Shown: positions 30,656-47,065 of the stretch, in pieces
Numbering within the stretch: position 1 is the stretch's first letter
Layout of the letters: each line of letters starts with the position of its first letter
Assembly (NCBI GenBank): GCA_902767725.1
Contig: CACXIM010000036.1
Location: 1-52,670, forward strand
Direction: 5' to 3'
Source: an uncultured Bacteroidia bacterium
Lineage (GTDB): Bacteria > Bacteroidota > Bacteroidia > Bacteroidales > F082
Length of the DNA: 52,670 nt
The notes under the pieces: generated by a model
Database searches by the model: none
Seen by the model: the letters and a program-made list of their open reading frames with translations, nothing else
Told to the model about the DNA's origin: nothing
Program-made: the position numbers and the translations under genes

Positions 30656-30699
30656 GCGGCAAAGATAACAAAAAGATTGTGCCAAATTAATGCACAGGC
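30656..30699 (-). promoter_or_regulatory. H1: hairpin-promoter element
   Basis: Minus strand: GCCTGTGC (30699-30692), loop containing TTTGG, GCACAATC (30682-30675), then TTTTTGTTATCTTTGCCGC. TATCTTTG is a perfect -7 box and the loop TTTG can be the -33 box. The stop codon of the upstream gene (30687) lies inside the hairpin loop. Next gene: WYL, 131 nt away. Confidence 0.6.
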
Positions 30700-31115
30700 A
30701 AAACTTTTGTAAGCCAAACTCTTCTTTGAAAAGATTGGGCATACCCTGTCAGCTCTTTGCGAAGCTCAGGCTGCAACGAAGTGTACCGGATGCAGGCGGC
30801 AAGCCAATCAAGAATCACTTGACGATAAGCTTCATCTTTGTATTCGATGCGTGCGGAAGCCTCGCTTCGTTGGTCGTTGAGGATTAAACTAAGCCGATTG
30901 CCCCTATGCTCAACGGCAATGCTTCTTCCTTGGTTGTCAACAATCATCAAGTCGGGGCTTACTTGGGCGGATTCACAATCGAATGGGAATGGTCGTTTCT
31001 GTCGTATCACTTCATTGAGGAAAGCATACATGAAGACACGCCCCATTCCGTGCTCGTCCTCGTGACCGAGCAGACGGGCGATAGTGGCCGTGTCAATGGC
31101 TTTGCTGTGCTTCAT
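30687..31115 (-). CDS. Island gene of unknown function (142 aa)
   Basis: 142 residues from MKHSKAIDTATIARLLGHED at 31115; the start lies inside the end of the upstream gene (23-bp overlap). The N-terminus looks like a short helical DNA-binding segment ('TATIARLLGHEDEHGMGRVF'). The middle (about 60-95) has alternating strands, DLMIVDNQGRSIAVEHRGNRLSLILND. No family recognised. The final codons (encoding PVH) and the stop are made by the left arm of hairpin H1. Second gene of module M7. Confidence 0.5.
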   Translation of the reverse strand: MKHSKAIDTATIARLLGHEDEHGMGRVFMYAFLNEVIRQKRPFPFDCESAQVSPDLMIVDNQGRSIAVEHRGNRLSLILNDQRSEASARIEYKDEAYRQVILDWLAACIRYTSLQPELRKELTGYAQSFQRRVWLTKVLPVH

Positions 31116-31698
31116 TACGGAACTCAACTTTGATTTCGTAGTAAAAATCACGGCAATAGATGAAGTCAGTGATGGCAAAATCGGTGTGGTCGAACAGGTT
31201 GTGAAAGGCTTGTGTCAAGTGCAGGTCTTTGGTCAGCTCCTGGTCGAGGCCTTCGTTCCAGTTGGGCGGCGGACACTTCATACCGATGAATTCTTCAAAA
31301 TCGTTGGAATTAGGGTCGCCGTTCCCTCTCAATTGGAGAGGAAAGGCAACGCCGCCTTCATACAGCAGGTTCCATCCCGAATCCTGCAAAGCATTCCAAA
31401 GCTCTTGGCGGTCCTCACCCTGCACGGGGTGCATTGCCGGATAGTCATTGCTGAGGTAGCAGCAAGCCTCGACTTCCACATCTTCACCGAAGCCTTTGTT
31501 GGCTTCATACACGGCGTGGGCTTTGTCGAACATCTCGCGCAAGGCCTCCCGCATCGCGTCGTTGAAGGCTATGATGTCGGGCAACATCATTACTTGTTCG
31601 TGCTTCAACACCTTGCTCCAAAGCCCTTCAAACGACATGATGATTTGGTCTTCAAGTGCCTTTAAGGCATCGTCTTGTAATAAGTCTTTGATGTTCAT
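31093..31698 (-). CDS. Island gene of unknown function (201 aa)
   Basis: 201 residues from MNIKDLLQDDALKALEDQI at 31698, 21 nt after hairpin H2. Acidic helical N-terminal half (KVLKHEQVMMLPDIIAFNDA). The C-terminal half has MKCPPPNWNEGLDQELTKDL and a strand-rich end DFAITDFIYCRDFYYEIKVEF. No motif known to me. First gene of a two-gene module. Confidence 0.5.
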   Translation of the reverse strand: MNIKDLLQDDALKALEDQIIMSFEGLWSKVLKHEQVMMLPDIIAFNDAMREALREMFDKAHAVYEANKGFGEDVEVEACCYLSNDYPAMHPVQGEDRQELWNALQDSGWNLLYEGGVAFPLQLRGNGDPNSNDFEEFIGMKCPPPNWNEGLDQELTKDLHLTQAFHNLFDHTDFAITDFIYCRDFYYEIKVEFRNEAQQSH

Positions 31699-31718
31699 GG
31701 TGTTTTGTGTTGAAATTT

Positions 31719-31761
31719 GCTGCAAAGAAAACAAAAGCCTGTGCCGAATTGAAGCACAGGC
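31719..31761 (-). promoter_or_regulatory. H2: hairpin terminator-promoter element
   Basis: Minus strand: GCCTGTGC (31761-31754), loop TTCAATTCG, GCACAGGC (31744-31737), then TTTTGTTTTCTTTGCAGC. It is 17 nt after the stop of the gene at 31779 and 21 nt before the next start. Perfect 8-bp stem. Confidence 0.65.
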
Positions 31762-31778
31762 TTTGAGAGATTCACAGA

Positions 31779-32096
31779 TTATGAAAAAAATTGAGGATTT
31801 GGAACAAGCCTATGTCTTCTCAACTTTGACTCCAGAAATCTCATTTCCTCAACAATTTGGTCAACTTCCATCATATCGCTGGCATCTTTCCAATAATACC
31901 ACCAATCGTTGTTTGTAATTTTCTCATATCCATCAATGCTTAAATCGGCTACTTTATCCAACTTTTCTTTGGTAATCATGGTTTCTGGATTCTTTCTGAT
32001 ACCAATTTCAACATCAATCGGTTTTCCTTCATTTTTTCTTGCATCCCATTCACAGCATACAAAGTAATCACTTATTTCAATCCCACTCCTATCCAT
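31779..32096 (-). CDS. Small partner of the DUF262-HNH gene (105 aa), unknown
   Basis: 105 residues from MDRSGIEISDYFVCCEWDAR at 32096, overlapping the end of the DUF262 gene by 25 bp. Charged, one domain, with a cluster of Trp (NNDWWYYWKDASDMM) and a helical end. No known family. The overlap indicates translational coupling, so it is probably part of the same complex or its immunity/control partner. Confidence 0.55.
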   Translation of the reverse strand: MDRSGIEISDYFVCCEWDARKNEGKPIDVEIGIRKNPETMITKEKLDKVADLSIDGYEKITNNDWWYYWKDASDMMEVDQIVEEMRFLESKLRRHRLVPNPQFFS

Positions 32097-34153
32097 TCTC
32101 GTGCCCAATCTTGTTCTCTTGTAAGCAGATGGTCCTTTAAGTCTGATGCAGCAAAACAGAACGCCGAGTCAGGAAGTTGCTCCTTTATTTTCATAAACAA
32201 GTCTTTTCGTTGTTGCAATGTGTTTGAAAGAAGCGTGCTTTCCAAAAGAGCTTTCATCATGTCGTATGTGACACCATAGATATTGCAGAATCGCTTGTAG
32301 GTAATGTTTGCAAAATCACCACTTTCAGACTGATAGCGCGTGATTTCAAATGGCAAAGCTTCGATCCGCCTATCATATAACAAAGCATCTTCATTGCTTT
32401 GATATTCATCAAATTGCAATCCATTGTTCTTGCTTCGGTTGGCCTCGAATGAAATGGCAGCAATGTTTCCTATGCTATTCAACCAAATCTTGTCAAATTC
32501 TCGATATTTCTCTCGTTTACCAACAATCCGGTCTTGTGCAACTATATGATCGTAATCCCAAGGACGATTGTATTCTGCCCACATATCCTGTCTGGCCGGG
32601 TCATAATTTGAGAAATGGGTGTTTAAATACTGGCGTTGCGCATACAGCAGCATTTCTTTAGCTTCCATAGCCCCATACCAGAAAACCCTGTTGAAAAACT
32701 CATGCGCTGGAGCAGGCATACTTTGCCCCAACTGCCATTTTTCCGATGCCTCGATTTTTATGAAATGCTTGACATCTTCAAGGGTATAAATATGTAATAA
32801 CTTGCCATCGTGCATCAAGCGACTCAATGCCGTTTGAATGTTCGCAACATTTATTCCATTCTTGCATCTTGTGAACACTTCTTGGACACAGCCTTTTTTG
32901 TCGTTTGAAAACCAGTGCAGACAAAAAGCAAGCGCTTTGATTTCATCAGACTTCAAATCAATTCCAGTTTGTAAATCCTTGTATGCAAAGTACATAAGCA
33001 ACAAGTAAATGTCAGGAGAATTACGTGCAATCAAAGTGCGCAACAAACTTGGCGTTTTCATATCTGACTTGTCATTAACGCCCAACCATTCATCCACTTT
33101 TGTTAGTACTTGTTCGAGGTTTTTGTTATACAATTCTTCTATTGACTTGCTTCCCCATTCATCTTTAGCGACATTTCTAATTTCTTTGATGCTCAATTCC
33201 GGTTTAAGACCCTTGTCTTCATCCTTGGTTAGTGCCAAGCGAAAAGCCAACATGGCCATTTTTGACGGATTCATATAGTGTTGGGCAAGACAGTCATTTG
33301 TTTCTTTTATGGAGGGCCAATACGCCTTGATTGCCGAATAGTTTAAATCATCTCTTGATATTGCTGTTCCGCCCGTATTAAGTCTTGTAAATAACACTTC
33401 GAGAGTCGTCTGTTCATTTGTTTCGGTCATTGTTTCTTTTTCTATCACGGCCTTCGATAGATGGTTGCAATTAACTTGATACTCTTTGATCCTTTGAAAT
33501 GCAGGATAAATCGCTCCAATGTAGTCCTTCTCTTGATCAGAAATCTTAAGGTCTTTGCAAGCGAAATCAGACTTTCTGAAATTATCCAGGGATTCTTCAA
33601 GAAATGTTTCGCAATTCTCTGTTCCAGCTTTCAAAAGACAATAAAGAGGTATAGGCGCTCCGGCCTCAATAGGCCATGTTCTTTTCAGTGAAAACTCATT
33701 ATTGTAGATGTTCCCCATAAGACCGAATCTGTCCAACGCTTCCCGCTTTTCAGATGCATTCAGTCTTGTACATTCATCATCATTTTTGAACCCCCATGGA
33801 TGTGGAATCGTTGTAGTTTTAATCCAAAAACTTCGAGTCGAGTTTTTCACTTGTGGAGGATTTAGGTCAAGCCAAAGTATCGCCCTGGCGTTTTCAACAG
33901 TGTTAAAGCCAAGACTGATGGCATTAAACCGTTGCTGTCCGTCCATCAGGTAATACTTTCCTTTGTTTTGATCATCGGTAATGTCCGAAAGCAAAAAAGA
34001 CCCAATGGGAAATCCCCGAAGAATAGAATCCCATAGCAATTCAACTTGGCTGGGCTTCCAAACCAAGCCTCTCTGTAGGGCTGGAATTGTGACTAAAGAA
34101 TTGCCTTTTGCCCAATCAGCTATTTCTGACAATGTATATTTTAGGTTTTCCAT
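32072..34153 (-). CDS. DUF262 (GmrS-type) protein with C-terminal HNH-like nuclease motif
   Basis: 693 residues from MENLKYTLSEIADWAK. The N-terminal DUF262/ParB-like domain has IPALQRGLVWK (23-33) and MDGQQRFNAIS (70-80), the DGQQR nucleotide site. A long helical middle follows. Near the C-terminus YDHIVAQ (His536) and NSIGNIAAISFEANRSKNN (559-577) form an HNH/DUF1524-type nuclease motif. In type IV GmrSD restriction, the DUF262 part uses NTP and the DUF1524 part cuts modified (glucosylated) DNA. Here both are fused. Module M6: H3, S1, this gene, then the 105-aa gene. Confidence 0.75.
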   Translation of the reverse strand: MENLKYTLSEIADWAKGNSLVTIPALQRGLVWKPSQVELLWDSILRGFPIGSFLLSDITDDQNKGKYYLMDGQQRFNAISLGFNTVENARAILWLDLNPPQVKNSTRSFWIKTTTIPHPWGFKNDDECTRLNASEKREALDRFGLMGNIYNNEFSLKRTWPIEAGAPIPLYCLLKAGTENCETFLEESLDNFRKSDFACKDLKISDQEKDYIGAIYPAFQRIKEYQVNCNHLSKAVIEKETMTETNEQTTLEVLFTRLNTGGTAISRDDLNYSAIKAYWPSIKETNDCLAQHYMNPSKMAMLAFRLALTKDEDKGLKPELSIKEIRNVAKDEWGSKSIEELYNKNLEQVLTKVDEWLGVNDKSDMKTPSLLRTLIARNSPDIYLLLMYFAYKDLQTGIDLKSDEIKALAFCLHWFSNDKKGCVQEVFTRCKNGINVANIQTALSRLMHDGKLLHIYTLEDVKHFIKIEASEKWQLGQSMPAPAHEFFNRVFWYGAMEAKEMLLYAQRQYLNTHFSNYDPARQDMWAEYNRPWDYDHIVAQDRIVGKREKYREFDKIWLNSIGNIAAISFEANRSKNNGLQFDEYQSNEDALLYDRRIEALPFEITRYQSESGDFANITYKRFCNIYGVTYDMMKALLESTLLSNTLQQRKDLFMKIKEQLPDSAFCFAASDLKDHLLTREQDWAREWIGVGLK

Positions 34154-34201
34154 ATCTATATGGTGTTGATATTGCAAAATACTTCTTTGTTTATGAATAA
34201 A

Positions 34202-34423
34202 TCAATCCAACGCCACAAAATCAAAATCCGACGGATAGCAGTTGGCTTTCTTGTAGTCGAACTGATAGATGCGCATGTAGGTTTCCTTGATCTCCTTGGC
34301 ACCATTGCTGAAGGGATTGGAAACATGCATGGGGACGGTCACGATGATGACCATTTCGGGCGTAAGCACCGTGCCGTTTACTCTTTTGACCCGCTTGGGC
34401 CATACTTTGAATACTTTGCTCAT
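34202..34423 (-). CDS. S1: 73-residue island protein, copy 1
   Basis: 73 residues from MSKVFKVWPKRVKRVNGTVL, 13 nt after hairpin H3. Basic N-terminus, a short strand-rich core (TPEMVIIVTVPMH), SNPFSNGAKEIK, MRIYQFDYKKANC and a C-terminal ALD. Family unknown to me. Two paralogues without gaps are at 39430-39651 (S2) and 44301-44522 (S3). The 5' half of S1 is almost identical in DNA to S2. It lies 49 nt upstream of the DUF262-HNH gene and may be its regulator or small subunit. Confidence 0.7.
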   Translation of the reverse strand: MSKVFKVWPKRVKRVNGTVLTPEMVIIVTVPMHVSNPFSNGAKEIKETYMRIYQFDYKKANCYPSDFDFVALD

Positions 34424-34435: not shown

Positions 34436-34474
34436 CAAAGAAAACAAAAGCCTGTGCTGGATTGAAGCACAGGC
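34436..34474 (-). promoter_or_regulatory. H3: hairpin terminator-promoter element
   Basis: Minus strand: GCCTGTGC (34474-34467), loop TTCAATCCA, GCACAGGC (34457-34450), then TTTTGTTTTCTTTGAAAC. An extra AAAACAAAAG before the left arm makes the stem longer. It is 30 nt after the stop at 34505 and 13 nt before S1. Confidence 0.65.
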
Positions 34475-34504: not shown

Positions 34505-35227
34505 CTATATCGGATTCAGTTTGTAAATACCCGAAAACAAATATTCAATTATTGGTGATGTTGTACTTTCCCCTTTCCAATAATTACTGGCGATTTGTAT
34601 CATTTGGTCAAAAGAACATTGAACAGGAATGTCATTCAGCCACTTCATATCATGATGTTCTATATCTCTTGTTTCTATCAATTCTGCCTTGCAAATAATT
34701 CTATTGTGCAAAGGATCAACAGTTTGTTGGAAATCTTTTACATGATGAAGTTCGTCGAATAAAAAAATGCTTTTAAATCGATCTAGTTTACTTGGGTAAA
34801 AATTCGTTCTTACAATAAACCATAGATATTCCCAAATAGAAGACAAATCTTTATGTTCCAAGACCTTACCCGTTTTTTCATACAAGTCACAATAAGGAAA
34901 AATCAACTTTTTCATTGTCGTCAATGAAACATATTTTTTTGTTTCTTTAATATTGATAATACTTGTTGGTACACTTGTTTCGCCACTTGCTTCAATTCTC
35001 TTAACTTCATCCAAATAAAGAGAAAGGTTTAGAAATCCGTAACACACCGTGTCTAATTGCAAACCACTTTCCTGCCAAAACGACAACAAAATGTTGAAAA
35101 TAGGCATTAAGTCAATAACCTTTTTCATTCTCGGTGGCATTTCGGCAATATCCGTATCAATCATAGTGCTTATTGGCTCATGATTTGGATCTACAAGGCG
35201 ATAGTACGTTTTGTCCTGTAAACTCAT
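34505..35227 (-). CDS. Island gene of unknown function (240 aa)
   Basis: 240 residues from MSLQDKTYYRLVDPNHEPIS. Mixed alpha/beta. A central DLYEKTGKVLEHKDLSSIWE stretch is followed by YPSKLDRFKSIFLFDELHHV, which loosely recalls ADP-ribosyltransferase-like DUF2441 proteins, and then DIPVQCSFDQMIQIASNYWK. I cannot assign catalytic residues, so the resemblance is a hint only. Last gene of module M5, 61 nt after the PD-(D/E)XK gene. Confidence 0.5.
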   Translation of the reverse strand: MSLQDKTYYRLVDPNHEPISTMIDTDIAEMPPRMKKVIDLMPIFNILLSFWQESGLQLDTVCYGFLNLSLYLDEVKRIEASGETSVPTSIINIKETKKYVSLTTMKKLIFPYCDLYEKTGKVLEHKDLSSIWEYLWFIVRTNFYPSKLDRFKSIFLFDELHHVKDFQQTVDPLHNRIICKAELIETRDIEHHDMKWLNDIPVQCSFDQMIQIASNYWKGESTTSPIIEYLFSGIYKLNPI

Positions 35228-35288
35228 TTTAGTCTTTGGGAAAGAATTGTTTTTTACGAGCTATATTGAATAGAGATGTTTGATATAA

Positions 35289-36650
35289 CTATTTCATCGG
35301 AAGTTGATATTCATCTATCTGGTGCAAAATCTCTTTTACTCTCCGCTCAAGATAGATTTCAAAACCGCCATTTTCAATGGCTCTTTTTAATTCATCGGGT
35401 TTTTGATTGTACTCATTGTCATATTCCCAACCATAAGGATGTTCATTGGGATAACTTCTATTACTAAATAGTTGGCCCTTGTTCAGGTATCTAGAATCAA
35501 CTGCATTTTCTCCAAAAATTCCAATATAAGTGAAGAAAGAACTATTCGCAATTAGACCATACTTTTCAAACAAGATCGACAAAGCCCAATCCTCTCTATA
35601 GAATCTTATAAAAATATAAGAATCATTTTTGTTATCTGGATTTACAAACCCCACCTCTCCCATTAATTCAAGTTTTTGAGCCACAACTGCAACCACTTCT
35701 TTTATTTTGGGTATATAGGAATTCCAACTATTCCAGTCTATTCGATTGTTTAAAGACGTTTTAATCTCATTCATTTGATTTAGGAGCCGTTGGATTTCAT
35801 CCGTCTTATTATTCAATATTTCCAGCTGTTGTTCATCAGTTTTATTAGCTAACTGAAGTTTTTCGATTAAATATTCTCGCAATTCCATATTCATCTTTTT
35901 GTTTATTGTTCGTAAATCAAAGTAGCCATTTAAATAATCAAGATATTGCATGGCTGCGGTATAGAGATATGTCTCCTTTTGTCTGCAATTGGGAATCACA
36001 TCCTCTTCAAGCCAAGCAATGATGTCTTCTCTGAAGGTAATGATTTTAAACCTGTCTTCAAATTCAGCTTTCAAAGAATTCTTATTTGGACACTTTGCCG
36101 CATCACAGCAAGTTTCACATTCCCCTATTGGAACTTTCCAACTACAATCAGTTGGATCGTATTTCTGAGGAGGTAAAAACACAACGTAGATTTGTTCTGG
36201 ATCAAAGTCCTCGTTACGCATTTTTATGATGTAACGAGCAAGTTGATTCTTTTGAAGAATAGCATCATAAATCTTGTTCTCAAAAATGATAGCATATTTG
36301 CCTTTTTCTCGCACCAACAAATCAATCCGCCAATCTTCTGAGGATATTTGTGGTTCAGACACATCAATATCCCAGTCGCTTAATTTATTTCTTATAAAGC
36401 TTTTGAGCAGAGTGTATTCGCCATTTTCGTTGTATTGAAGCAAGGACGCAAGAATACGACTATTGGCGTTTTCGTTTACATGTAATTCATCAATCACGTT
36501 TATGTGATACGGAAGCTTCTGCTTCAAATGTTTATAACGCCTCGTGAATTCTTCCAATAACTGAAAGAAGCCATCAGCTTCAGCACGATTACTTGCTTCA
36601 AATTGAGTCAAGAGGTCTTGACATTCATTATATGTTTCGATGTAGTCCAT
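35289..36650 (-). CDS. PD-(D/E)XK superfamily nuclease (PDDEXK_4-like)
   Basis: 453 residues. N-terminal HVNENANSRILASLLQY (57-73) is the conserved Glu/Ser entry motif of this family. The nuclease core is DWRIDLLVREKGKYAIIFEN (106-125) followed by K126: Asp110 and the ENK triad (124-126), then Q136-x3-Y140. A CDAAKCPN Cys-rich bit lies near 180, a coiled coil at about 265-305 and a unique C-terminal half. Likely a DNA endonuclease; in defence islands such proteins stand alone or with a control protein. The acidic gene upstream ends exactly where it starts. Confidence 0.75.
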   Translation of the reverse strand: MDYIETYNECQDLLTQFEASNRAEADGFFQLLEEFTRRYKHLKQKLPYHINVIDELHVNENANSRILASLLQYNENGEYTLLKSFIRNKLSDWDIDVSEPQISSEDWRIDLLVREKGKYAIIFENKIYDAILQKNQLARYIIKMRNEDFDPEQIYVVFLPPQKYDPTDCSWKVPIGECETCCDAAKCPNKNSLKAEFEDRFKIITFREDIIAWLEEDVIPNCRQKETYLYTAAMQYLDYLNGYFDLRTINKKMNMELREYLIEKLQLANKTDEQQLEILNNKTDEIQRLLNQMNEIKTSLNNRIDWNSWNSYIPKIKEVVAVVAQKLELMGEVGFVNPDNKNDSYIFIRFYREDWALSILFEKYGLIANSSFFTYIGIFGENAVDSRYLNKGQLFSNRSYPNEHPYGWEYDNEYNQKPDELKRAIENGGFEIYLERRVKEILHQIDEYQLPMK

Positions 36651-36896
36651 TTAAAACTCGTTTTCCCAATCTCCATTGTCAAAGAAATTGTCCATCTCAT
36701 CAAACGATTCCATGATGTCTTCTATGATTTCTCTTTCTGATTGGAAATAATCATCATCAACATACATTTCAATGTCATCTTCCAGTTGGTCTGCAATTCT
36801 GTCAAACAAGGCGCATTTGTCTGCACCATATTTCATTTCTTTGTCGCTCATCCGACGATACTTGGCGACAATTTCTAATAATTCTTCTTTAGTCAT
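36651..36896 (-). CDS. Acidic 81-residue protein paired with the PD-(D/E)XK nuclease
   Basis: 81 residues, strongly acidic (DQLEDDIEMYVDDDYFQSE, then many Glu/Asp to the end DNGDWENEF). Helical. No family recognised. Its TAA is followed directly by the nuclease ATG (0 nt gap), and a very good promoter precedes the pair. An acidic co-encoded partner suggests a DNA-mimic inhibitor or antitoxin; this is inference from charge and layout. Confidence 0.6.
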   Translation of the reverse strand: MTKEELLEIVAKYRRMSDKEMKYGADKCALFDRIADQLEDDIEMYVDDDYFQSEREIIEDIMESFDEMDNFFDNGDWENEF

Positions 36897-36919
36897 ACTA
36901 CAAGTATTTAATTGACTGG

Positions 36920-36951
36920 CAAAACTACATATTTTGTTTCAATTCACCAAA
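36920..36951 (-). promoter_or_regulatory. Strong internal promoter for the acidic protein-nuclease pair
   Basis: Minus strand: TTTG at 36951-36948, 20-bp spacer, TAGTTTTG at 36927-36920; start codon 24 nt further at 36896. The same -33/-7 pair and spacing precede the DUF262 pair at 44261-44292. Confidence 0.65.
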
Positions 36952-36955
36952 ACAA

Positions 36956-37393
36956 TCAATCCCACCATCCCCGCATCCGGCGTTCCAGATATAGAAACAA
37001 CACATGCCAGGCTTTTTCTTTGCGCAGCGAATGGCAGGAATAAAACCGCTTTTCATAGCGTTTGTAGTTCTTCGTGTTGACGTATGGCGCGTCTTCGTCG
37101 TCGTCAAAGAAAGCATCCTTACCTTGGGCAATGCTGATGAGTCGCATGGCAACCTCCATTTGCTTTGCAATTTTTTTGGCATCAGCACAATGCGTATGCT
37201 TGCTTAAGAAGAAGTCTCTCATGCTTTCAAGTTTATAGTAAATCATATCCAACAAACAGCCATAGTCGTAATCGACCAATTTGGCCACTTCTTCATCTGT
37301 GTATTGGGGTCTTTCAGAGCAGTCTGCCACACGGCGTTTTTGTCCTTTTACCTTGGCTGCTTCTTGCAGCTTCATTTTGTGTCTGTATTTCAT
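36956..37393 (-). CDS. Island gene of unknown function (145 aa)
   Basis: 145 residues, basic N-terminus (MKYRHKMKLQEAAKVKGQKR) and a helical body with DYDYGCLLDMIYYKLESMRD and KKIAKQMEVAMRLISIAQG, ending in YLERRMRGWWD. It recalls small phage-type helical proteins, but I cannot name a family. Its start overlaps the upstream gene by 4 bp. Confidence 0.5.
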   Translation of the reverse strand: MKYRHKMKLQEAAKVKGQKRRVADCSERPQYTDEEVAKLVDYDYGCLLDMIYYKLESMRDFFLSKHTHCADAKKIAKQMEVAMRLISIAQGKDAFFDDDEDAPYVNTKNYKRYEKRFYSCHSLRKEKAWHVLFLYLERRMRGWWD

Positions 37394-38094
37394 AGTTTAG
37401 AAGATTGGGGGGTGTTTTCTGTTGGTTGTTTGAGGGAGGACATGTAGTCGCCAAGCAGAAATGCCTCTTGGCGGTATTTATATGTTGTCATCTGAAGCAC
37501 ATCGGGAATGCTATATGCTTTGAAGCTGATTAAGTTCCAAAAAGTATAGCATGGCTGGACTTCGGGTGCCATTGAAAAAGATGCATTGTCGTATTCTCGC
37601 CAGCCATCAGAATAAGGTGTGTAACCTTCATCGTTACAATCATACAAAACGCAATCATACATGTAGATATGGTCGATAATGTCCAACATTCGATTCCATC
37701 TGGATCCATAAAAAGCATCATCGTCCAAAGGTTCCAGTTGTGGGTTTTTATCATCGTGCCAGTATTCTATTAAGCTGCAAAATAAGTATCGCTTGTCAAT
37801 GGCCTGCAACATGGCGTACATTCTGGCATGCTCAGCCTCTAAATCGTGCTCGTAGGTTTCGAGCAAGGAATTGACTTTAGACAGTCTAACAAGATCATCA
37901 TCATTAAAATGCAACTCAAACAATCGATTAAGTATCTCTGCTCTTTTATTAAGTTTTTTCCAGATTTCTTGATTGTTGCTGATGCAATAATACTCTTGCC
38001 CTTTTTGAAAACTACAGGCAAGCTTTTCAATTTCCGACTCACACTTTGTGAGCATCATACGGAGTTGGTCGGCGTTTGTAATTGAACTAATCAT
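37390..38094 (-). CDS. Island gene of unknown function (234 aa)
   Basis: 234 residues from MISSITNADQLRMMLTKC, 18 nt after hairpin H4. Long helices in the first 110 residues (KKLNKRAEILNRLFELHF, SLLETYEHDLEAEHARMYAM), then an aromatic second half (WREYDNASFSMAPEVQPCYT). No family recognised. First gene of module M5; couples to the next by ATGA overlap. Confidence 0.5.
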   Translation of the reverse strand: MISSITNADQLRMMLTKCESEIEKLACSFQKGQEYYCISNNQEIWKKLNKRAEILNRLFELHFNDDDLVRLSKVNSLLETYEHDLEAEHARMYAMLQAIDKRYLFCSLIEYWHDDKNPQLEPLDDDAFYGSRWNRMLDIIDHIYMYDCVLYDCNDEGYTPYSDGWREYDNASFSMAPEVQPCYTFWNLISFKAYSIPDVLQMTTYKYRQEAFLLGDYMSSLKQPTENTPQSSKL

Positions 38095-39389: not shown

Positions 39390-39429
39390 TTTGTTGACCT
39401 TTTGATGATCTAATGTCTTTTCAACTATG

Positions 39430-39651: not shown

Positions 39652-39664
39652 GTTTGTTAGTTTA

Positions 39665-39672
39665 GCACAGGC
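39665..39672 (-). repeat. H5: half of a hairpin element
   Basis: Only the left arm GCCTGTGC (39672-39665) remains, followed at once by the S-gene leader TAAACTAACAAACATG. The right arm, T tract and -7 box are gone. It lies 32 nt after the DUF262 stop, where a full element would be. Confidence 0.55.
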
Positions 39673-39704
39673 TTAAGGAAAAAAGAGTTTTTGTGTTACA
39701 GATT

Positions 39705-42302
39705 CTATTCGGTTTGCTCGCAAATCTTTTCTTGATAGTTTTGGCAAATCAATTTTTCAGAGTCACTTGTTCCAACTTGGGCAACTAGGCCATCGAGTTT
39801 TTCTATGAAGGAAGAGGAATCGTCTATGCCATTAGTATAAAAGAAATACCAATTCTCTTTTTTGTCTCCATCTTCGATGTTTCTTAGAATAGGTTTGCAT
39901 GCACTAGTCTCGTCAATGATTCGAACAAAACCGTTACTATGCCATTGGAAACGTTTATTTTTGAAAACGAACTGAATGTCCCATCCCCACCAAAAATTAC
40001 CTGCTTTTTCATTTTGTATTACGAACCGAAATCCTTCGTTTCTTGAACGTTCTATTAATTCCCATAATATTTTGTTTCGATGGGAACCACCCCAATCAAA
40101 TGTGATTGCATATTGACCATATGGTTTATAATAGCCTAGAATCCCATTCCATCTAAATCTTCCTGTGGGCTCTGTCTCAATAAATACTTTGTATGGTAAA
40201 GCATCTAGTATTGGTACGATAAATTGATTAGCATTTGAATCATTTAAAGAATTGGAAGGTTTGATATCATCCAAACTATTAGCTAATAGTATATTGTGGA
40301 CACTATTCTTCCATGTTGAAGAGCATAAAATCCATTTCCATGTACTTGCATTTGGATTGAAAACTTGTTTGTCGTACAATTGATCATTCCAATTGTTGCA
40401 TTGAATAACCAATGATTTCGTGAGAAAAACCTTATAATCTTCTTTTACACCTATACCATTCTTATCAAAATACTTTTGAACATTTCTCCATTTTTTGTCA
40501 AAACTGTTCCAACTGTCTTGTGTTACATTACCTTTTTCATCTTGAAACAGGAATCGTATTGCACCCTTGAAAAACGCATATTTCTCGGCATCTTCGATGA
40601 TTTCTTCCCATGTCTGGTAATTTGAACCATCTTGCTTCTTGTTGCTGCCCTTGTATTCGCGAGGCTTTCTGGCTTCATCAACGATTTGCTTGGCTTTGGC
40701 TATTTCTTCGGCTACTTGTTCCATAGCATGATATTGTCCTTTTAAATCGAAATCATCAACATGATTTGCCAACGCATCATAAATGTTGTGGCTTTTATTT
40801 GATAGCTTTTCTATTAACCTCAATGCAGCGTGATATGTATCAGAACTATCAATCGTTGAGTTTTCAATTATATTCCAAACAACACGCATCCATCGTGCCA
40901 AGGTTTCGCTGGAATTTTCATCATTTTCTTTAAAAAATTTCAGTAAGGCATAAAACGCAATACGGGAAGGATAGGTTTCTCTATTGTTATTGTTGGTAAT
41001 ACCTGTGTAAAAATTCCACAGTTTCTTTTCTTCAACACTGGTTCCTCTATTCCAAACTGCTTGGCAACAATTGTTGTAATTGAATCTCTTTTCGCACAAA
41101 ATATCCCAAATGTTGAAGATAGGAATCAAGCACTCTTCTACACCACATTTATTTAATATTTCATTGTAAACATCCCACGAGACAAAATCGTCTTTTGTAG
41201 GATACAAAGGCATTTCATCTATAATCTTCCTGTTAATTTTGTCATTATCAGCGTTTTGATGCTGGACAAACCAACACCTCCAAACATTCATGAAATGACG
41301 ATTGAAGAAACTCATCAACAAAGTGTCTGGCAATTCTTTCTCTGTTCTATTAATGTTTGCGACCTCCCAAAACAATTCCAGCCATGTACCGTCGATACCT
41401 GTATATTTATTAGTGATTGGGTCATATTGTCCTTTTAGTCTGTTGAGTAAGACGTCGTATGTCTTTTGTTTGCCTTCATCTTCTTTTTTCTTTTCTTCAA
41501 TATACTGTTCCAAACTTGCCTTGAAATTCTCAAATGGCGTAAGTTGCTTGCCGCGAGCATTCATTTTTACATAAGTTTCGTCGGATAACTTATGCTCTCC
41601 CATATCGACAAAATGGAATGTAATAGGACAATTGCAACCACTTGTTAGTTTTTCCGCGAAGTTTTTGAATCGGTCCTTGCCTTTAATTTGATTGTGAATT
41701 TCATCCAGCATCGTGAGCATGCCCATGACAGTTGGGTCTTTTTGCCAATCCGGATAGAACCAAGGTTGATTCGTGATAAAACGATAAATCCAGTTGTCTA
41801 TGGAATCAATATAATTCTTTGTTTTCTCGTCTTTTTCTTTGTCGTCTTCTTTCAATCTACTCTTATAGTTTTCTTCTAACAGTTTCCTATAAGCGTTGTC
41901 TGGGATAACATCGTGTTTCACCAATTCTTCACAAAACTCGCGGGAAGATTGTCGTGTCGCGTATGAGAATCGACCGAGTATGTCTTTGCAAATGCAATTG
42001 CCTTTATGACGGCAATCCGATACGGACTGGCATTTCTCAAAAACATATTTGTGAAACAAGAACAACGTAGTGAGTCTTTGTTGTCCATCAAACGGTATGA
42101 ACTTGTTTTCGTCAACACGCCCATAAACGAAATCGAAAAACAATGTTTCATTTTCAACTGTGTTTACCAATTTCCCAACAAGAGATTTTCTTACATCGGC
42201 GGCTTTTACATTATCGCGGCCTTGTGCATAGTCTCGTTGAATGATTGGTATCTCTATCCGATATTTGCTAATCAACTGATAGAATGAATATATATCGTTC
42301 AT
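39705..42302 (-). CDS. Large DUF262 (GmrS-type) protein
   Basis: 865 residues. DUF262 start: IEIPIIQRDYAQGR (16-29) and PFDGQQRLTTLFLF (70-83). VYGRVDENKF precedes the DGQQR site. The remaining about 700 residues have no motif I recognise; they include a charged helical middle and an aromatic beta-rich end (GNFWWGWDIQFVFKNKRFQW). No HNH motif is seen, so it may supply the NTP-dependent sensor to the nuclease encoded just upstream, whose stop it overlaps by 4 bp. Confidence 0.7.
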   Translation of the reverse strand: MNDIYSFYQLISKYRIEIPIIQRDYAQGRDNVKAADVRKSLVGKLVNTVENETLFFDFVYGRVDENKFIPFDGQQRLTTLFLFHKYVFEKCQSVSDCRHKGNCICKDILGRFSYATRQSSREFCEELVKHDVIPDNAYRKLLEENYKSRLKEDDKEKDEKTKNYIDSIDNWIYRFITNQPWFYPDWQKDPTVMGMLTMLDEIHNQIKGKDRFKNFAEKLTSGCNCPITFHFVDMGEHKLSDETYVKMNARGKQLTPFENFKASLEQYIEEKKKEDEGKQKTYDVLLNRLKGQYDPITNKYTGIDGTWLELFWEVANINRTEKELPDTLLMSFFNRHFMNVWRCWFVQHQNADNDKINRKIIDEMPLYPTKDDFVSWDVYNEILNKCGVEECLIPIFNIWDILCEKRFNYNNCCQAVWNRGTSVEEKKLWNFYTGITNNNNRETYPSRIAFYALLKFFKENDENSSETLARWMRVVWNIIENSTIDSSDTYHAALRLIEKLSNKSHNIYDALANHVDDFDLKGQYHAMEQVAEEIAKAKQIVDEARKPREYKGSNKKQDGSNYQTWEEIIEDAEKYAFFKGAIRFLFQDEKGNVTQDSWNSFDKKWRNVQKYFDKNGIGVKEDYKVFLTKSLVIQCNNWNDQLYDKQVFNPNASTWKWILCSSTWKNSVHNILLANSLDDIKPSNSLNDSNANQFIVPILDALPYKVFIETEPTGRFRWNGILGYYKPYGQYAITFDWGGSHRNKILWELIERSRNEGFRFVIQNEKAGNFWWGWDIQFVFKNKRFQWHSNGFVRIIDETSACKPILRNIEDGDKKENWYFFYTNGIDDSSSFIEKLDGLVAQVGTSDSEKLICQNYQEKICEQTE

Positions 42303-44239
42303 TTTTTACTCTCCTTTAATTTTACACCATAAGACTTAAGTTCATCGTTCTCTTTTAGTAGAAATGCATCAAGTTGTAGATACGCTGCGACTACTTTTGT
42401 CATCGCAGTAACATACTCTATCCCCGCTTGCTTGTCCCATAATAGTGGGTTTGTGGAATATGGCGAATAATGTTTGAAAAACACATTTCTTGTACAAATC
42501 GGAACAAACAAAGATTCTTTTTCGACATTTTCGTATTCTGCCAATTTCGCTCTCTTTTCTGGATATAGTTTGTTGTTAAAAGCAGCATTCTTATCGCCTT
42601 GCAAAAGAGCCATATTGGTTAGATGGTCATCTTTTTCGAATTCTTTTTCTAATACAAAAGTGTTATTTAACCTCTTTATAGATATTCCCATCATAGCACC
42701 GACAACAACCTTGTATAAGGGATATTGCTCATTTTCATCTTTTGCAACGATTGATTCTTTATTAATTGAATTTACGAAATCCGTCGACATTTTATCAACT
42801 GTATCTGGTTCGTTGGCTGTAAATCGAAATGATTTTGCAAATTGCTTGAGTTGGTTTATTTCATCGTCCAACCATTCCGTTTTAGGCTTTTCGTTTTGTG
42901 CATGAATATGTTCTAATGACCATTTCTTTTTTGCAGCCTCAAAGTGTTTGTCAAATGGATAACGAGACACTTCGCTTATTTGGTTTTGGGTAGTGGCAAG
43001 GTTGAATAGTAACAAAACATTGTGTATCTCATCGTTGTTGGGGCCATATTTCCAGCTTGCAAAATTAACTTCCACAATCACTTTGTCTTTGGGTTTTTCG
43101 CCAATGCCCAATGATTTCTGGCAACGACTTATCAAAGAAGACAGGAAAGTGTCTTTGGGGTTTTCTGCATCGCACAGCAAGTCTCGAAGCATTGACATGT
43201 TGTCACTTCCTTTCTGATTCATCAAATAGCCTATGTAATGGTATAATTGTCTGTTGTCGTACCATGCCTTCATTATTCGGAAAAACCTTTGAATGCTGCT
43301 CCATTGTATTTCCCAGCCTTCTTTTGCTATGGTTTCTGAATAAGTTGAGAAAATGAAATAATCATTTAGTCTTAACTCTTTTTCAATGTCATATTTGTAT
43401 TCCTTTTTGTCATTCTTTTTGCTACGCAGAATCATTTCCAACAAGAAATCGATTCTTGTGCATTCAAATCTTGCATCTTCTGGCTGTGGATTGATAAAAT
43501 ACCAGAAGGAATTGTCGTGCAGGGTTTGTTCCATTCTATCCCATTCTCCAGCCATTTCCAATTGCTTCAGACGCATGGCATCAGCATTCATCCCAGTGAA
43601 ATTGTCATCTTTCAACAGAAGGGCTTTTACTAATTCTGCATTGCTCAACGATATTTTACCGGAATTAAGACGTTTGAAGACCTCGTAGGCATTGTCTTGT
43701 GTTTCATACCAAATGACCTTGCATGAGTTCTTTATTTTATCAACAAAGTCGGGTTTCAAAGGATCTTCCTTTGCATTTTTTTTTGCATTGACAACATTTT
43801 TCGTTGAAAGCATGAAGTGAAAGTCAATATTAGCCCCGTCGTTCTCATTTATTATATTAGCTAAAAACTCGCTGCTTTTTGGCCGTGTTTGGTATTGAAC
43901 GGTTGGTAATGTTGTATTTTCAGACAGTATTTTCAAAATGATATAAATTGTTGTCAGCCTTTGTTGTCCATCAATCACTTCATACCATTGTTCCGAATCA
44001 AGAATAGCGCATTCTTTTTTTCTTTCAGAATCCATTTCTTTCACAACCAATGGCTGCAAACAATACCATGTTTTTTCTTTTGAATCTTGTAATTCTTGCG
44101 GTTTAAATTCATTTAAATCATCCAACAAGTCCTTTACCTGTCGCTCTGTCCAACGATAACCTCTTTGGTAACTTGGAACAAAGAACTTCATACCAAGAAG
44201 TTCGTTCACCGATTTCAATTCAATCTTGTTCTCTGTCAT
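42299..44239 (-). CDS. DUF262-DUF1524 (GmrSD-type) restriction protein
   Basis: 646 residues. DUF262: FFVPSYQRGYRWT (19-31) and VIDGQQRLTTIYII (88-101), then YEVFKRLNSGKISLSNAELV. DUF1524/HNH end: WSLEHIHAQN (His444, His446), HLTNMALLQGDKNAAFNNKL (539-558) and the closing KR (562-563). GmrSD proteins are type IV restriction enzymes that cut DNA with sugar-modified hydroxymethylcytosine. It has its own near-perfect promoter at 44261-44292 and overlaps the second DUF262 gene by 4 bp. Confidence 0.8.
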   Translation of the reverse strand: MTENKIELKSVNELLGMKFFVPSYQRGYRWTERQVKDLLDDLNEFKPQELQDSKEKTWYCLQPLVVKEMDSERKKECAILDSEQWYEVIDGQQRLTTIYIILKILSENTTLPTVQYQTRPKSSEFLANIINENDGANIDFHFMLSTKNVVNAKKNAKEDPLKPDFVDKIKNSCKVIWYETQDNAYEVFKRLNSGKISLSNAELVKALLLKDDNFTGMNADAMRLKQLEMAGEWDRMEQTLHDNSFWYFINPQPEDARFECTRIDFLLEMILRSKKNDKKEYKYDIEKELRLNDYFIFSTYSETIAKEGWEIQWSSIQRFFRIMKAWYDNRQLYHYIGYLMNQKGSDNMSMLRDLLCDAENPKDTFLSSLISRCQKSLGIGEKPKDKVIVEVNFASWKYGPNNDEIHNVLLLFNLATTQNQISEVSRYPFDKHFEAAKKKWSLEHIHAQNEKPKTEWLDDEINQLKQFAKSFRFTANEPDTVDKMSTDFVNSINKESIVAKDENEQYPLYKVVVGAMMGISIKRLNNTFVLEKEFEKDDHLTNMALLQGDKNAAFNNKLYPEKRAKLAEYENVEKESLFVPICTRNVFFKHYSPYSTNPLLWDKQAGIEYVTAMTKVVAAYLQLDAFLLKENDELKSYGVKLKESKK

Positions 44240-44260
44240 TTTTGACTCAGTTTAGATTTG

Positions 44261-44292
44261 CAAAACTACAAATGTTCTTCAACTTGACCAAA
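44261..44292 (-). promoter_or_regulatory. Promoter of the two-gene DUF262 operon
   Basis: Minus strand: TTTG at 44292-44289, 20-bp spacer, TAGTTTTG at 44268-44261, ATG at 44239. It partly sits between the S3 stop and the operon, so S3 and the DUF262 pair may be separate transcripts. Confidence 0.65.
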
Positions 44293-44300
44293 TAGAATTG

Positions 44301-44522
44301 CTAATCCAACGCCACATAATTAAAACCCGACTGTCCGCAACAGGCTTTTTTGTAGTTGAACCCGTAGATTCGCATGTGGGTGTCCTTGATTTCCTGGGCT
44401 TCATTGTAAAAAGGATTCGAGGTGCCGATTTTCGTGGTCACGACAATTTCCATTTCTGGTGTCAATACGGTTCCGTTTACTCTCTTGACCCTCTTGGACA
44501 TTACTTTGGATACTCTACTCAT
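44301..44522 (-). CDS. S3: 73-residue island protein, copy 3
   Basis: 73 residues from MSRVSKVMSKRVKRVNGTVL, aligned without gaps to S1 and S2 but clearly diverged (EIVVTTKIGTSNPFYNEAQE, MRIYGFNYKKACCGQSGFNY). It shares the RVKRVNGTVLTPEM core, SNPF, MRIY, YKKA and the final ALD. Starts 22 nt after hairpin H6 and is followed by the DUF262-DUF1524 gene after 61 nt. Unknown family; recurrent position in front of nuclease or ATPase genes is the main clue. Confidence 0.7.
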   Translation of the reverse strand: MSRVSKVMSKRVKRVNGTVLTPEMEIVVTTKIGTSNPFYNEAQEIKDTHMRIYGFNYKKACCGQSGFNYVALD

Positions 44523-44543: not shown

Positions 44544-44586
44544 GCTGCAAAGAAAACAAAAGCCTGTGCCGAATTGAAGCACAGGC
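44544..44586 (-). promoter_or_regulatory. H6: hairpin terminator-promoter element
   Basis: Minus strand: GCCTGTGC (44586-44579), TTCAATTCG loop, GCACAGGC (44569-44562), then TTTTGTTTTCTTTGCAGC. It lies 28 nt after the PLD stop and 22 nt before S3. Confidence 0.65.
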
Positions 44587-44614: not shown

Positions 44615-45127
44615 TCAGGCTATTGGATCCCCGCAAAAATCTCTCCGTTTACATGCCTTGCAGTGCTTCCCAATCCAAACCGCATCAAATTGGTTCATGG
44701 CTTGCTCGACCAGCTCAGGATTGTCGGTGAGGATGCCGGCCTCGAAGTTGCGCGTACCCTCGCCTTTCATGCCGATGCCTGCACCTGTGAGGTTGGCGCT
44801 GCCAATATAGGCCACTTGGCCATCGAAGACCAAAATCTTGAAATGTACCCTTGGACAAAGCGCCCTCTCCAAACCATCAAACAAGGCCGGGTATTTGTCG
44901 AAGTCCTCACGAAACGCTGGACCCGGCTCTTTGGCGTGGATAAGCCGTACCTCAACGCCTTTTTTGATGAGCTGCGCCAAGACCGCAAGGAAGGGCATCG
45001 TTTGAGCTCCGACCTTGACATACAGGTCTTTGATGTCGGCGGTGCCAATCCAGAGGCTGCGTTTGACCTTGGGGACTCGAGCGAGTACTTCGGTGTAATG
45101 GGCAGAATCGGTGATGAGTTTCAGCAT
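44615..45127 (-). CDS. Single-HKD phospholipase D-family nuclease
   Basis: 170 residues from MLKLITDSAHYTEVLARV. One HKD motif: HFKILVFDGQ (His95, Lys97, Asp102) then AYIGSANLTGAG (Ser/Asn). Single-HKD proteins of this length (Nuc-like) dimerise to form the active site and cut DNA without metal. A C-terminal C-x2-C-x5-C (Cys156, 159, 165) after IGKH may bind zinc or an Fe-S group, an unusual addition. Module M2: hairpin H7, this gene alone, hairpin H6. Confidence 0.8.
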   Translation of the reverse strand: MLKLITDSAHYTEVLARVPKVKRSLWIGTADIKDLYVKVGAQTMPFLAVLAQLIKKGVEVRLIHAKEPGPAFREDFDKYPALFDGLERALCPRVHFKILVFDGQVAYIGSANLTGAGIGMKGEGTRNFEAGILTDNPELVEQAMNQFDAVWIGKHCKACKRRDFCGDPIA

Positions 45128-45199
45128 GGTTGTTGTATGTTTAGTAATGCAAAAATAACACAAGTTCTTTGAATGTGGAGGTCGCGGTTGCTGTTTTCC

Positions 45200-45242
45200 G
45201 CTGCAAAGAAAACAAAAGACTGTGCCAAATCACGGCACAGTC
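45200..45242 (-). promoter_or_regulatory. H7: hairpin element with compensated stem
   Basis: Minus strand: GACTGTGCC (45242-45234), loop, GGCACAGTC (45226-45218), then TTTTGTTTTCTTTGCAGC. The stem pair C-G of the other copies is A-T here on both arms, so pairing is kept. It is 22 nt after the AAA stop and 73 nt before the PLD start. Confidence 0.65.
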
Positions 45243-45264
45243 TCAATAATCTTTACATTGTTCT

Positions 45265-46926
45265 CTAAAAATACTTAAAGCCAATCTTATGGCTTTCTTT
45301 CTGTTCCAAACGCTCGCTGTCGCAATGCGCCATCAACTTCTCCAAGGAAGAAGCCGCATCGCCGTGCAGCACGGTGTCGATGGCATAGTGACGGGCTACA
45401 TTCTCGATTTGGCCACCGCTGAAGTCGTACTTCTCGGCCAAGACTTGAATGTCGGACTCCTGCAACTCGGGCAGCATCGAATGCCAAATTTGCATCCTTG
45501 CCTCCAACGTAGGCTTGTTGAACTTGATTTTGTAGAGGAAACGGCGTTCGAAAGCCTTGTCCATGTTTTGGGCGAGGTTGGTGGTGGCGATGAGGATGCC
45601 TTCGAGAGTCTCCATTTCCTGAAGGATGATGTTCTGGATGGAGTTCTCCATCTTCTCCACGGCACGCTCCGCTCCCTCCTGACGCTTGCCAATGATGGCG
45701 TCAGCCTCGTTGAAGAGCAGGATGGGGGTGATGGACTGCTGTGCGACCTTCTCACGATACTGGTCGAACACCGCCTTGATGTTCTTCTCACTCTCTCCAA
45801 CCCACATGCTCTTGATTTCCGAAATGTTGACCTGCATGATGTCGCGTCCCGTCTGACGCGCCAGCTGCAACACGGTTTCGGTCTTACCCGTACCAGGTGC
45901 ACCGTAGAACAAGCAGGTGAAGCCACTGCGATAGCCCTTGCCTTTCAAGCGTTCGCAAATCTCACGATAGTGCTCTTCCTCCAGCAACTGGCCCAAATCG
46001 GTCACTTGTGCTGCAACACCCTTGTCGTAAAAGAGTTGCTTCTCAACGATGTCCTCGTTTTTAATCAGGCCTTTCCTGTTGACATCCTGCCTCATCGAAG
46101 CCAAGTTCAACTCGGGAAACAGCATCTGTTTGGCTTTCCATGTCATACGGAACGACTCGCGGTTAACGAAACCGTCATCGTTGTTGTATTCAATCATCTT
46201 GATGTCGAGCAAGACATGCGTGTTGTTGACCAAACGGCTCCTGATGTAGTTCCACTCGTACCTCTTGTCGTAGAAAAAGTTCAAGTCGTGATAGCCGATG
46301 TTGTCGTCATTGTTGTTGACAAACAGGTGCGAGAACAAAAGCAGCAGCATCTCGTCCTTCTCATAAAGGTTGAAACCCTTCAGCTTTTGGACGAAAATCA
46401 AATGTTGGTTGCTGTCGAGCAGGTCGCGGAGTTTTCTTTCTGCAGCATCGGTGCTCAACTCGTTGTCGTCGCGCATTTCCATGATATCGTCGATGAGGCC
46501 AAACAACTCGGTGCAAGTCAAGCCGGAGCAATCGTGAGGCACGAATTTCTCATCGTTCTTAAAAGCATTGACTACCTCCAAGGGCACATGGTAAGTGATG
46601 CCGCTACGGGTGCGGCTGCAGTTCACCAAGCCACGGCATTCCAACTCGTCAACATCCTTCATGAGACGGATGACACGGGTGGTGCTGCACTGGAGGTGCT
46701 CGGAGAAATCACTAATGCGGATGGTGTCGTTGCTCTTGTCGATAAACAGCGACATCATCACCGACTGTTCCTTGGTGAGTTCCATCATGTCCATAAGGTA
46801 CTTGATGGGTCGCGCCGCCTTGCGGTAAAACTCCGTGTTCAGTTGCGATCCTTTCGAGAGGTCCACAATCTTTTCCACTGCGGTCAGCAGGTCCATTTTC
46901 TTGGTCGTTTTTTTCTCTGGTTCCAT
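45265..46926 (-). CDS. AAA+ ATPase of unknown partner
   Basis: 553 residues from MEPEKKTTKKMDLL with a GGAG site just upstream. The first about 300 residues are an all-helical region with a winged-helix look (SDFSEHLQCSTTRVIRLMKD). AAA+ domain: Walker A YGAPGTGKT (341-349), Walker B ILLFNEADAI (402-411, Asn for the usual first Asp, Glu kept), sensor 1 ATTN (447-450), and arginine finger FERRF (459-463). Close in style to island AAA proteins that remodel a DNA-bound partner. A long open antisense frame (45289-46944) is a shadow. Module M1. Confidence 0.8.
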   Translation of the reverse strand: MEPEKKTTKKMDLLTAVEKIVDLSKGSQLNTEFYRKAARPIKYLMDMMELTKEQSVMMSLFIDKSNDTIRISDFSEHLQCSTTRVIRLMKDVDELECRGLVNCSRTRSGITYHVPLEVVNAFKNDEKFVPHDCSGLTCTELFGLIDDIMEMRDDNELSTDAAERKLRDLLDSNQHLIFVQKLKGFNLYEKDEMLLLLFSHLFVNNNDDNIGYHDLNFFYDKRYEWNYIRSRLVNNTHVLLDIKMIEYNNDDGFVNRESFRMTWKAKQMLFPELNLASMRQDVNRKGLIKNEDIVEKQLFYDKGVAAQVTDLGQLLEEEHYREICERLKGKGYRSGFTCLFYGAPGTGKTETVLQLARQTGRDIMQVNISEIKSMWVGESEKNIKAVFDQYREKVAQQSITPILLFNEADAIIGKRQEGAERAVEKMENSIQNIILQEMETLEGILIATTNLAQNMDKAFERRFLYKIKFNKPTLEARMQIWHSMLPELQESDIQVLAEKYDFSGGQIENVARHYAIDTVLHGDAASSLEKLMAHCDSERLEQKESHKIGFKYF

Positions 46927-47022
46927 AGCTTTCTCCTTCCATAATCTTTCAACAATAATTATAGAACACAAACCGTGTTTTTTCAACCCCGGGGCGAAAA
47001 AAATTCTTCGCGCTCGGTTCAC

Positions 47023-47065
47023 GCTGCAAAGAAAAAGAAAGCCTGTGCCAAATTATTGCACAGGC
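47023..47065 (-). promoter_or_regulatory. H8: hairpin element at the upstream edge of the island
   Basis: Minus strand: GCCTGTGC (47065-47058), loop with TTTGG, GCACAGGC (47048-47041), then TTTCTTTTTCTTTGCAGC. It precedes the AAA gene by 97 nt and lies 21 nt after the stop of the gene remnant at 47087. Confidence 0.65.

Follow-up and report, generated by a model that had tools for sequence, protein, structure and literature searches.

Repeated palindromes at probable promoters and a candidate WYL-WCX regulator in a mosaic nuclease island of Bacteroidales

Repeats and genes of the island

We analysed a stretch of 52,670 nt, hereafter the window, from a rumen bacterium (uncultured Bacteroidia bacterium; Bacteroidales; F082; assembly GCA_902767725.1, contig CACXIM010000036.1), in which copies of a short palindromic repeat, named H1 to H8, separate successive modules of nuclease, ATPase and other genes; repeats and modules alike lie on the minus strand. 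A preliminary description, made from the letters alone, had presented the repeat as an eight-copy unit combining a hairpin terminator with a promoter and confined to this island. It named neither the gene after H1, which encodes a WYL regulator, nor the correspondence between the clades of that regulator and the arms of the palindrome. The unit is probably a promoter that contains an operator.

Seven copies (H1-H4 and H6-H8) consist of a 25-bp palindrome with an 8-9-8 layout, the centre of which lies 18.5 bp upstream of a Bacteroidota -7 box (19.5 bp for H1). Five are perfect GCCTGTGC-N9-GCACAGGC palindromes, a form that never occurred in 100 dinucleotide shuffles of the window: H2 (31723-31761; palindrome 31737-31761, -7 box 31723-31730), H3 (34436-34474; palindrome 34450-34474, box 34436-34443), H4 (38116-38154; palindrome 38130-38154, box 38116-38123, reading TTTCTTCG), H6 (44548-44586; palindrome 44562-44586, box 44548-44555) and H8 (47027-47065; palindrome 47041-47065, box 47027-47034). 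In H7 (45204-45242; palindrome 45218-45242, box 45204-45211) the arms are GACTGTGC..GCACAGTC, the outer GAC/GTC being a compensated change. Contrary to what had been supposed, the hairpin is not uniform: H1 (30660-30699; palindrome 30675-30699), with arms GCCTGTGC..GCACAATC, keeps 6 of 8 pairs; this copy is of the regulator-operon type described below, with a 10-bp gap and the consensus box TATCTTTG at 30660-30667. The proposed -7 boxes, TTTCTTTG or TATCTTTG, were indeed found at the repeat ends. H5 (39665-39672) is the half copy that had been reported: compared with H3, a 30-nt deletion took the spacer, the 3' arm and the -7 box, leaving a dead copy with the 5' arm only. With this promoter deleted, the DUF6140 and FtsK-like genes downstream of H5 probably rely on the H6 operon; in one relative (genome G029) the same module retains an intact operator (L068:7969).

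The position 17-32 nt after a gene stop holds for H2-H7 but not for H8. The open reading frame (ORF) presumed to end before H8, at 47087-47689 of the minus strand, runs antisense to the plus-strand gene of a PfkB kinase (47237-48139), so that H8 lies in a divergent intergenic region with nothing to terminate. In the bacterium's own genome, of which 3.06 Mb (79.6% complete) could be searched, no perfect form was found elsewhere, and every match to a 27-base pattern with at most two mismatches falls inside the island. As had been claimed, full units are confined to it and not scattered, but one core-plus-box match lies outside, at G000:C31:40014. The core TGTGC-N9-GCACA alone, with 2 mismatches, gives 28 matches in the window versus 28.4 by chance, so specificity can be claimed only for the core plus arms or the core plus box.

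Behind H1 come a 36-codon remnant of a RhuM-Fic gene (30531-30641), recognized by blastp to that family, and the gene of a 302-amino-acid (aa) WYL-WCX transcription regulator (29617-30525; Pfam WYL 2.1e-13, WCX 1.4e-11). The H2 module (30687-31698) has genes of 201 and 142 aa; that of H3 (31779-34423) a DUF6140 gene (34202-34423), a GmrSD_N protein gene (32072-34153) and a gene of 105 aa; that of H4 (34505-38094) genes of 234, 145, 81, 453 (PDDEXK_4, 35289-36650) and 240 aa. The H6 module is fused with that of H5 (38184-44522): its first part holds DUF6140 (44301-44522) and two GmrSD_N protein genes (42299-44239 and 39705-42302), and the part after the dead H5 a further DUF6140 (39432-39651) and the FtsK-like gene (38184-39389). 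H7 precedes a PLD-type nuclease of 170 aa (44615-45127; Pfam PLDc_2 5.5e-15) and H8 an AAA ATPase of 553 aa (45265-46926; Pfam AAA 1.6e-25; PADLOC IetA 1e-31). Since the PADLOC matches (IetA, PDC-S26, Orf5/HEC, SspE, SspH and DrmC) are partial, a defence role is assigned from domains. The Pfam and PADLOC scans of island proteins named no CBASS enzyme. The 73-aa DUF6140 protein, with its three copies in the window, is encoded by the first gene after the operator at seven counted sites; no mention of it was found in the open-licence PubMed Central (PMC) literature.

Geometry of the predicted promoters

We scanned 39 loci (relatives and window; 1.41 Mb, both strands) for palindromes with 8-bp arms, at least 7 of 8 paired, upstream of T[AT]NNTTTG, allowing every gap of 0-15 and spacer of 3-15. 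One geometry, gap 6 and spacer 9, dominates with 91 sites versus 1 in shuffled sequence, and the next-best one with another centre reaches 10; this constancy supports the earlier view that each unit supplies a promoter for the gene that follows it. This de novo scan gives the unbiased geometry; a list of 148 sites was restricted to gaps of 8-10 and includes 7 sites of other palindrome types, in loci L122 and L123. Two lists of 39 loci were used: the scan includes L148 and L149, and the recounts of sites, boxes, wobble changes and folds have L086 (a WYL fragment) and L087 (a 55% WYL) instead. Of 99 genomes in the genus, 56 contain TGTGC-N9-GCACA-N9-TWNNTTTG, and none contains the reversed pattern used as a control.

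The suggestion that TTTG or TTCG in the loop serves as the -33 box did not hold: in 428 other promoters of these loci, taken without an orthologue filter, TTG peaks at start positions 22 and 23 nt upstream of the -7 box (∼9-10% at each), and the loop motif begins at 18 nt, a position that shows no peak. At the -33 place TTG is found in none of 103 module promoters and in 2 of 25 regulator-operon promoters, which means that the palindrome covers or replaces the -33 element. These two classes make up the 128 sites of the 39 loci, 25 of them having a WYL or RhuM-WYL operon downstream. In a separate count, WYL itself is the next gene within 200 nt at 13 sites. The regulator-operon sites all have TAnnTTTG (25/25) and mostly a 10-bp gap (16/25), and the module sites rarely have TAnnTTTG (5/103) and nearly always a 9-bp gap (101/103).

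The WYL protein and its co-distribution with the sites

The window protein is the only match in its own genome at E ≤ 1e-20. It has the winged helix-turn-helix (wHTH), WYL and WCX parts of a WYL-domain transcription regulator. Pfam gave no hit in the N-terminus, where the predicted model (low confidence; predicted local distance difference test, pLDDT, 64) has helices and wing-like strands. With this model, 32 fold matches in the PDB reach E ≤ 0.001; apart from two chains from a CRISPR-related protein, they are entries for DriD, PafBC, CapW and BrxR. A phmmer search gave 11 hits at E ≤ 1, namely two unrelated enzymes and chains that are either DriD, PafBC or unnamed WYL proteins; none is labelled BrxR or CapW, to which the fold match is also weaker than to DriD.

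Of the 99 genomes, 38 encode a WYL at least 75% identical to that of the window (some partial), 23 one of 50-61% identity, and 38 neither. The exact site is present in 36/38, 11/23 and 9/38 of them, respectively (Fisher test between the first and last groups, 1.2e-10, an optimistic value given the kinship of the genomes). In the two genomes of the first group that have no site (G010 and G028) the WYL gene lies at a contig start. Where this WYL occurs together with a site at ≤1 mismatch, the WYL contig itself holds such a site in 13 of 15 genomes. In Prevotella ihumii (L202:10001-17785), a relative available in culture, a WYL (55%) gene is found together with genes for an exonuclease, two GmrSD proteins, PLD and AAA; the AAA gene is preceded by a perfect palindrome and WYL, by eye, by an imperfect one.

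Palindrome arms change with the WYL clade

In loci with a diverged WYL the palindrome is altered on both arms, in a compensated manner, while its register to the -7 box is kept. The arm forms, clade by clade, are GCCTGTGC, ACATGTGC, AGGTRTGC, RCTTGTGC and AGGTGYGC: ACATGTGC..GCACATGT arms go with WYLs of 58-61% identity, AGGTATGC or AGGTGTGC arms with genomes G087/G088, ACTTGTGC or GCTTGTGC with G020/G075, and AGGTGYGC..GCACACCT with WYLs of 50-52%. TGTAC..GRACA arms are found with paralogs of 40-44%. The WYL tree supports the four diverged groups and the paralogs at 1.0 and the window's own clade at 0.89. Some diverged loci have no recognisable site. The recognition-helix region varies by clade; by eye, a lysine in FHKW/FIKW accompanies xGG arms in B2, C and P. 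ihumii.

Mosaic islands and the place of the swaps

The 128 sites stand before 30 ORF families, 15 of which are found behind a site in at least two loci; among them are AAA, WYL, RhuM-Fic, PLD, DUF6140, tubulin/FtsZ-like, HAD and YgjP-like peptidase families as well as unknowns, and proteins resembling uracil-DNA glycosylase (UDG) lie inside some modules. Operators number seven in the window and 11 in G029 (L068 and L069). Maps of 13 loci are mosaics, with psuG or psuK at the edge in eight. Gene content between units thus differs among relatives, and the neighbour changes at the unit, as the preliminary description expected of modules swapped there.

The place of the change was located with pairs of sites from different genomes (89 tandem sites in 38 loci, 300 shuffles, 25-nt left flank). 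In 123 pairs with the same upstream and a different downstream family, the left 25 nt are 0.588 identical (null 0.353, 0/300) and the right flank 0.457 (null 0.445, 67/300). In 197 pairs with different upstream and the same downstream family, the left flank is at 0.354 (null 0.353, 145/300) and the right at 0.610 (null 0.446, 0/300). Spacer identity is raised in both sets (1/300 and 0/300). The left flank tracks the upstream gene and the right flank the downstream gene, which places the change of neighbours at the operator. The route may be homologous recombination within the unit, as had been suggested, or insertion of a unit plus its gene.

A proposed operator-promoter for the WYL regulator

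We put at roughly 0.8 the probability that the WYL-WCX regulator encoded at the end of the island recognizes a 25-bp operator built into the promoter of each unit, and so controls the nuclease and ATPase modules together. This reading draws on what is observed directly, namely the sequence and geometry of the sites, their co-distribution and co-variation with the WYL gene, and the place of the swaps; binding by the WYL protein, the sign of control, the ligand and the route of recombination we infer. A WYL dimer would read the two 8-bp half-sites of the palindrome, which overlies the -33 region and keeps a constant spacing to the -7 box, both before every module and before the operon of the regulator itself. 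A single protein would then set the expression of nuclease and ATPase modules jointly, in response, by precedent, to single-stranded DNA (ssDNA) or another ligand of damage or infection held in the WYL domain. Through the shared unit, modules could be gained, lost or exchanged while control is kept.

Several observations weigh against this. Nine of the 38 genomes lacking a WYL of at least 50% identity still have a match to the site. One of them (G016) has another palindrome type, another (G071) has its last site 0.9 kb from a contig end, and two (G089, 56%, and G008, about 50%) encode a C-terminal WYL fragment on the site's contig; G077, G103, G107, G115 and G119 have site matches without explanation. 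One of the 36 concordant genomes, G012, has only another palindrome type, and in G030 and G033, too, the exact pattern matched other types (L083 and L078 have near-canonical sites). Loci L084, L085, L093 and L094 have this WYL, whole or partial, and no site in the fetched stretch. The WYL of G070 falls in the ACATGTGC clade and its two sites read ACATCTGC..GCGGATGT. The T-tract is thinner, not lost, in other clades (5.4 vs 6.6 T in 8), three RhuM-like genes lie elsewhere in the window's own genome, the structure model is weak, and gene calls are mechanical ORFs.

A possible terminator role and other explanations

The likeliest of the rival explanations is that the unit is also an intrinsic terminator. 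In this dual element, the operator-promoter of the next module would terminate the previous one and insulate against read-through, a prospect to which we give rather less than an even chance. Hairpin and T-tract are there in form, and H2-H7 follow their stops closely; the 84 tandem GGC-type sites have a mean of -15.7 kcal/mol and 6.6 T in 8, versus a background of 4.0 T in 8 at the corresponding position upstream of other -7-like boxes (n=451; the 38 loci of the swap comparison). However, the eight sites, H8 included, that have behind them an ORF of at least 200 aa on the opposite strand are about as good (-14.7 kcal/mol, 6.6 T in 8), so hairpin and T-tract do not depend on a gene to terminate. 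These eight, from the clade-A list, belong to a set of 19 that have an ORF on the opposite strand no more than 200 nt away; two of the set are of another type and the rest have short ORFs that are maybe not genes. Hairpins of the regulator-operon sites are weak (about -5 kcal/mol, n=16). Diverged-clade sites (n=23) have 5.4 T in 8 and -15.7 kcal/mol, an energy that is not independent of their selection for at least 7/8 pairs, and a pool in which diverged clades are mixed with off-island sites and palindromes of other types (n=21) has 3.9 T in 8.

Stems point more towards termination: they extend by 135 of 252 further pairs at tandem sites, but by 6 of 24 at strictly divergent ones (106/201 vs 25/72 in a wider grouping, p=0.009). 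Wobble-compatible changes likewise exceed those of the opposite-strand kind, 29 vs 13 (p=0.02), although 17 of the 29 affect one pair and tandem sites (18:9) show no greater excess than the others (11:4). Given the longer tandem stems and the wobble excess, termination is plausible as a second role at tandem sites. Termination as the main function was rejected: context, T-tract, clade and wobble asymmetry did not show it to be the conserved function.

That the unit is nothing but a terminator-promoter repeat, multiplied by copying and served by no regulator of its own, is improbable. Such a repeat would account for the hairpin, T-tract and promoter, all seen directly, and for the near-identity of copies within islands, but not for compensated arm changes that follow the WYL clades with the -7 register kept, nor for the co-distribution with WYL, the position of H8 or the weak hairpin of the regulator operons. 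We regard as quite improbable that the WYL gene is a hitch-hiker and that the palindromes are read by a core regulator or another island protein such as RhuM. The RhuM-Fic family (Pfam RhuM 3e-21, Fic 2e-11; present in 16 of 61 loci) does lie between operator and WYL in many relatives' islands, with an N-terminus that looks HTH-like by eye, and the RhuM-like genes elsewhere in the genome could supply a reader. Nevertheless, RhuM is deleted in the window, where seven operators remain, which disfavours it as the reader; moreover WYL is itself the next gene at the 13 sites mentioned, and the arms co-vary with its clade. Finally, a mobile repeat, of the repetitive extragenic palindromic (REP) or miniature inverted-repeat transposable element (MITE) type, or a site-specific recombination site would be short, palindromic, multi-copy and flanked by changing neighbours as these units are, but is very improbable in view of the fixed promoter register, the absence of scattering and of free copies away from promoters in the searches of the own genome, and the lack of any integrase or recombinase family among 18 island proteins scanned with Pfam.

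Comparison with known regulators

The operator-promoter reading has close precedents. BrxR has the same wHTH-WYL-WCX layout, is encoded in the island it serves, and has imperfect inverted repeats of 25 bp (Acinetobacter) or 27 bp (plasmid pEFER) near its own promoter. In Acinetobacter the 25-bp pseudo-palindrome overlaps the predicted -35 and stands at the tip of a predicted stem-loop (PMC9122589, PMC9122601). In contrast, the pEFER island has two boxes, where there are 7 here and 11 in G029, and half-sites are 10/11-5-10/11 instead of 8-9-8, the distance to the -7 box being rigid in our case. CapW, from CBASS islands, resembles our system by its homodimer layout, a palindrome at a defence promoter and autoregulation (PMC9122588), and differs in that its palindromes overlap the -10 of the CBASS promoter. 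As for both, whose inverted repeats span about 19-27 bp, a 25-bp repeat is found here at the promoter of the regulator's own operon (25 of 128 sites); a close sequence relation to them was not found.

DriD (PMC12340889) and PafBC (PMC11804915), the ssDNA-triggered WYL activators, are closest to the island WYL in both sequence and fold. In several promoters the DriD site overlaps a poor -35 and is always equally far from the -10; a further site lies at the regulator's own gene, which is not among the activated ones (PMC12340889); a site at fixed distance from the -7 box over a poor -33 is likewise what we observe. Their targets are DNA-damage genes, unlike the clustered defence modules adjoining the regulator here. 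RptR is also a small regulator dedicated to a defence island, one of restriction-modification, but it is not described as WYL and uses three direct repeats in one promoter (PMC12255303). By the two features compared, the island is unlike an integron-type cassette array: an integrase family, which such arrays have together with attC-like sites, is missing from the 18 proteins scanned, and our palindromes sit in a promoter register.

As to the sign of control, we lean slightly towards activation of the modules, as by DriD and PafBC, and give it an even chance: the fixed spacing, the lack of a -33 and the non-consensus boxes are reminiscent of DriD promoters, although the TT of the module box is mainly a clade-A feature, with TA in 15 of 23 B/C sites, which weakens the activator reading. 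Repression, as found for BrxR and CapW in the tested defence islands (PMC9122601, PMC9122588), has somewhat less than even odds. More doubtful is the broader idea of an integrase-free cassette system, in which the ∼40-bp operator-promoter would be both the control address of a WYL sensor and the short homology for module exchange. If so, any module arriving with the unit would come immediately under the island's alarm, and regulator and address would co-evolve, separating the module pools of different clades.

Joint control of many unrelated defence systems is little known, the WYL regulators described in these sources acting on one or two promoters of one island or on DNA-damage genes. In the present case a single WYL protein seems to command as many as eleven promoters in a mosaic island, through an operator readable from sequence, which makes regulon, signal and module exchange testable, and the operator could serve as a tag for finding unknown defence genes behind it. 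No multi-operator WYL regulon of a Bacteroidota defence island was found among the best-ranked papers in the open-licence PMC literature, which does not include subscription papers and outside preprints. The kind of regulator is known from BrxR, CapW and DriD; as far as our searches show, the novelty within that literature lies in the number of operators per island, their rigid register to the promoter, the way they co-vary with WYL clade, and their role as the point where modules are swapped.

Related palindromes and sites outside the island

Other palindrome types (TGTGCAA-N5-TTGCACA and similar) precede -7 boxes in L122:6822-10341, L123:3189-11714, G012:C75, G100:C7 and G112:C15, in the first two near a gene clustering with WYL; they are perhaps the operator of another regulator. 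In the window itself, a pair of GGTCATGGTCAT-type repeats outside the island (48155-48189 and 49547-49581) flanks psuG and an 85-aa ORF at 49151. The off-island core-plus-box match of the own genome (G000:C31:40014-40049, i.e. L110:7015) has counterparts at L111:6240 and L112:6760. In all three genomes it lies 87-93 nt upstream of an energy-transducer-like gene (TonB C-terminal-like by eye), with an rRNA methyltransferase-like gene upstream of it in L110 and L111, and it is possibly a member of the regulon in trans.

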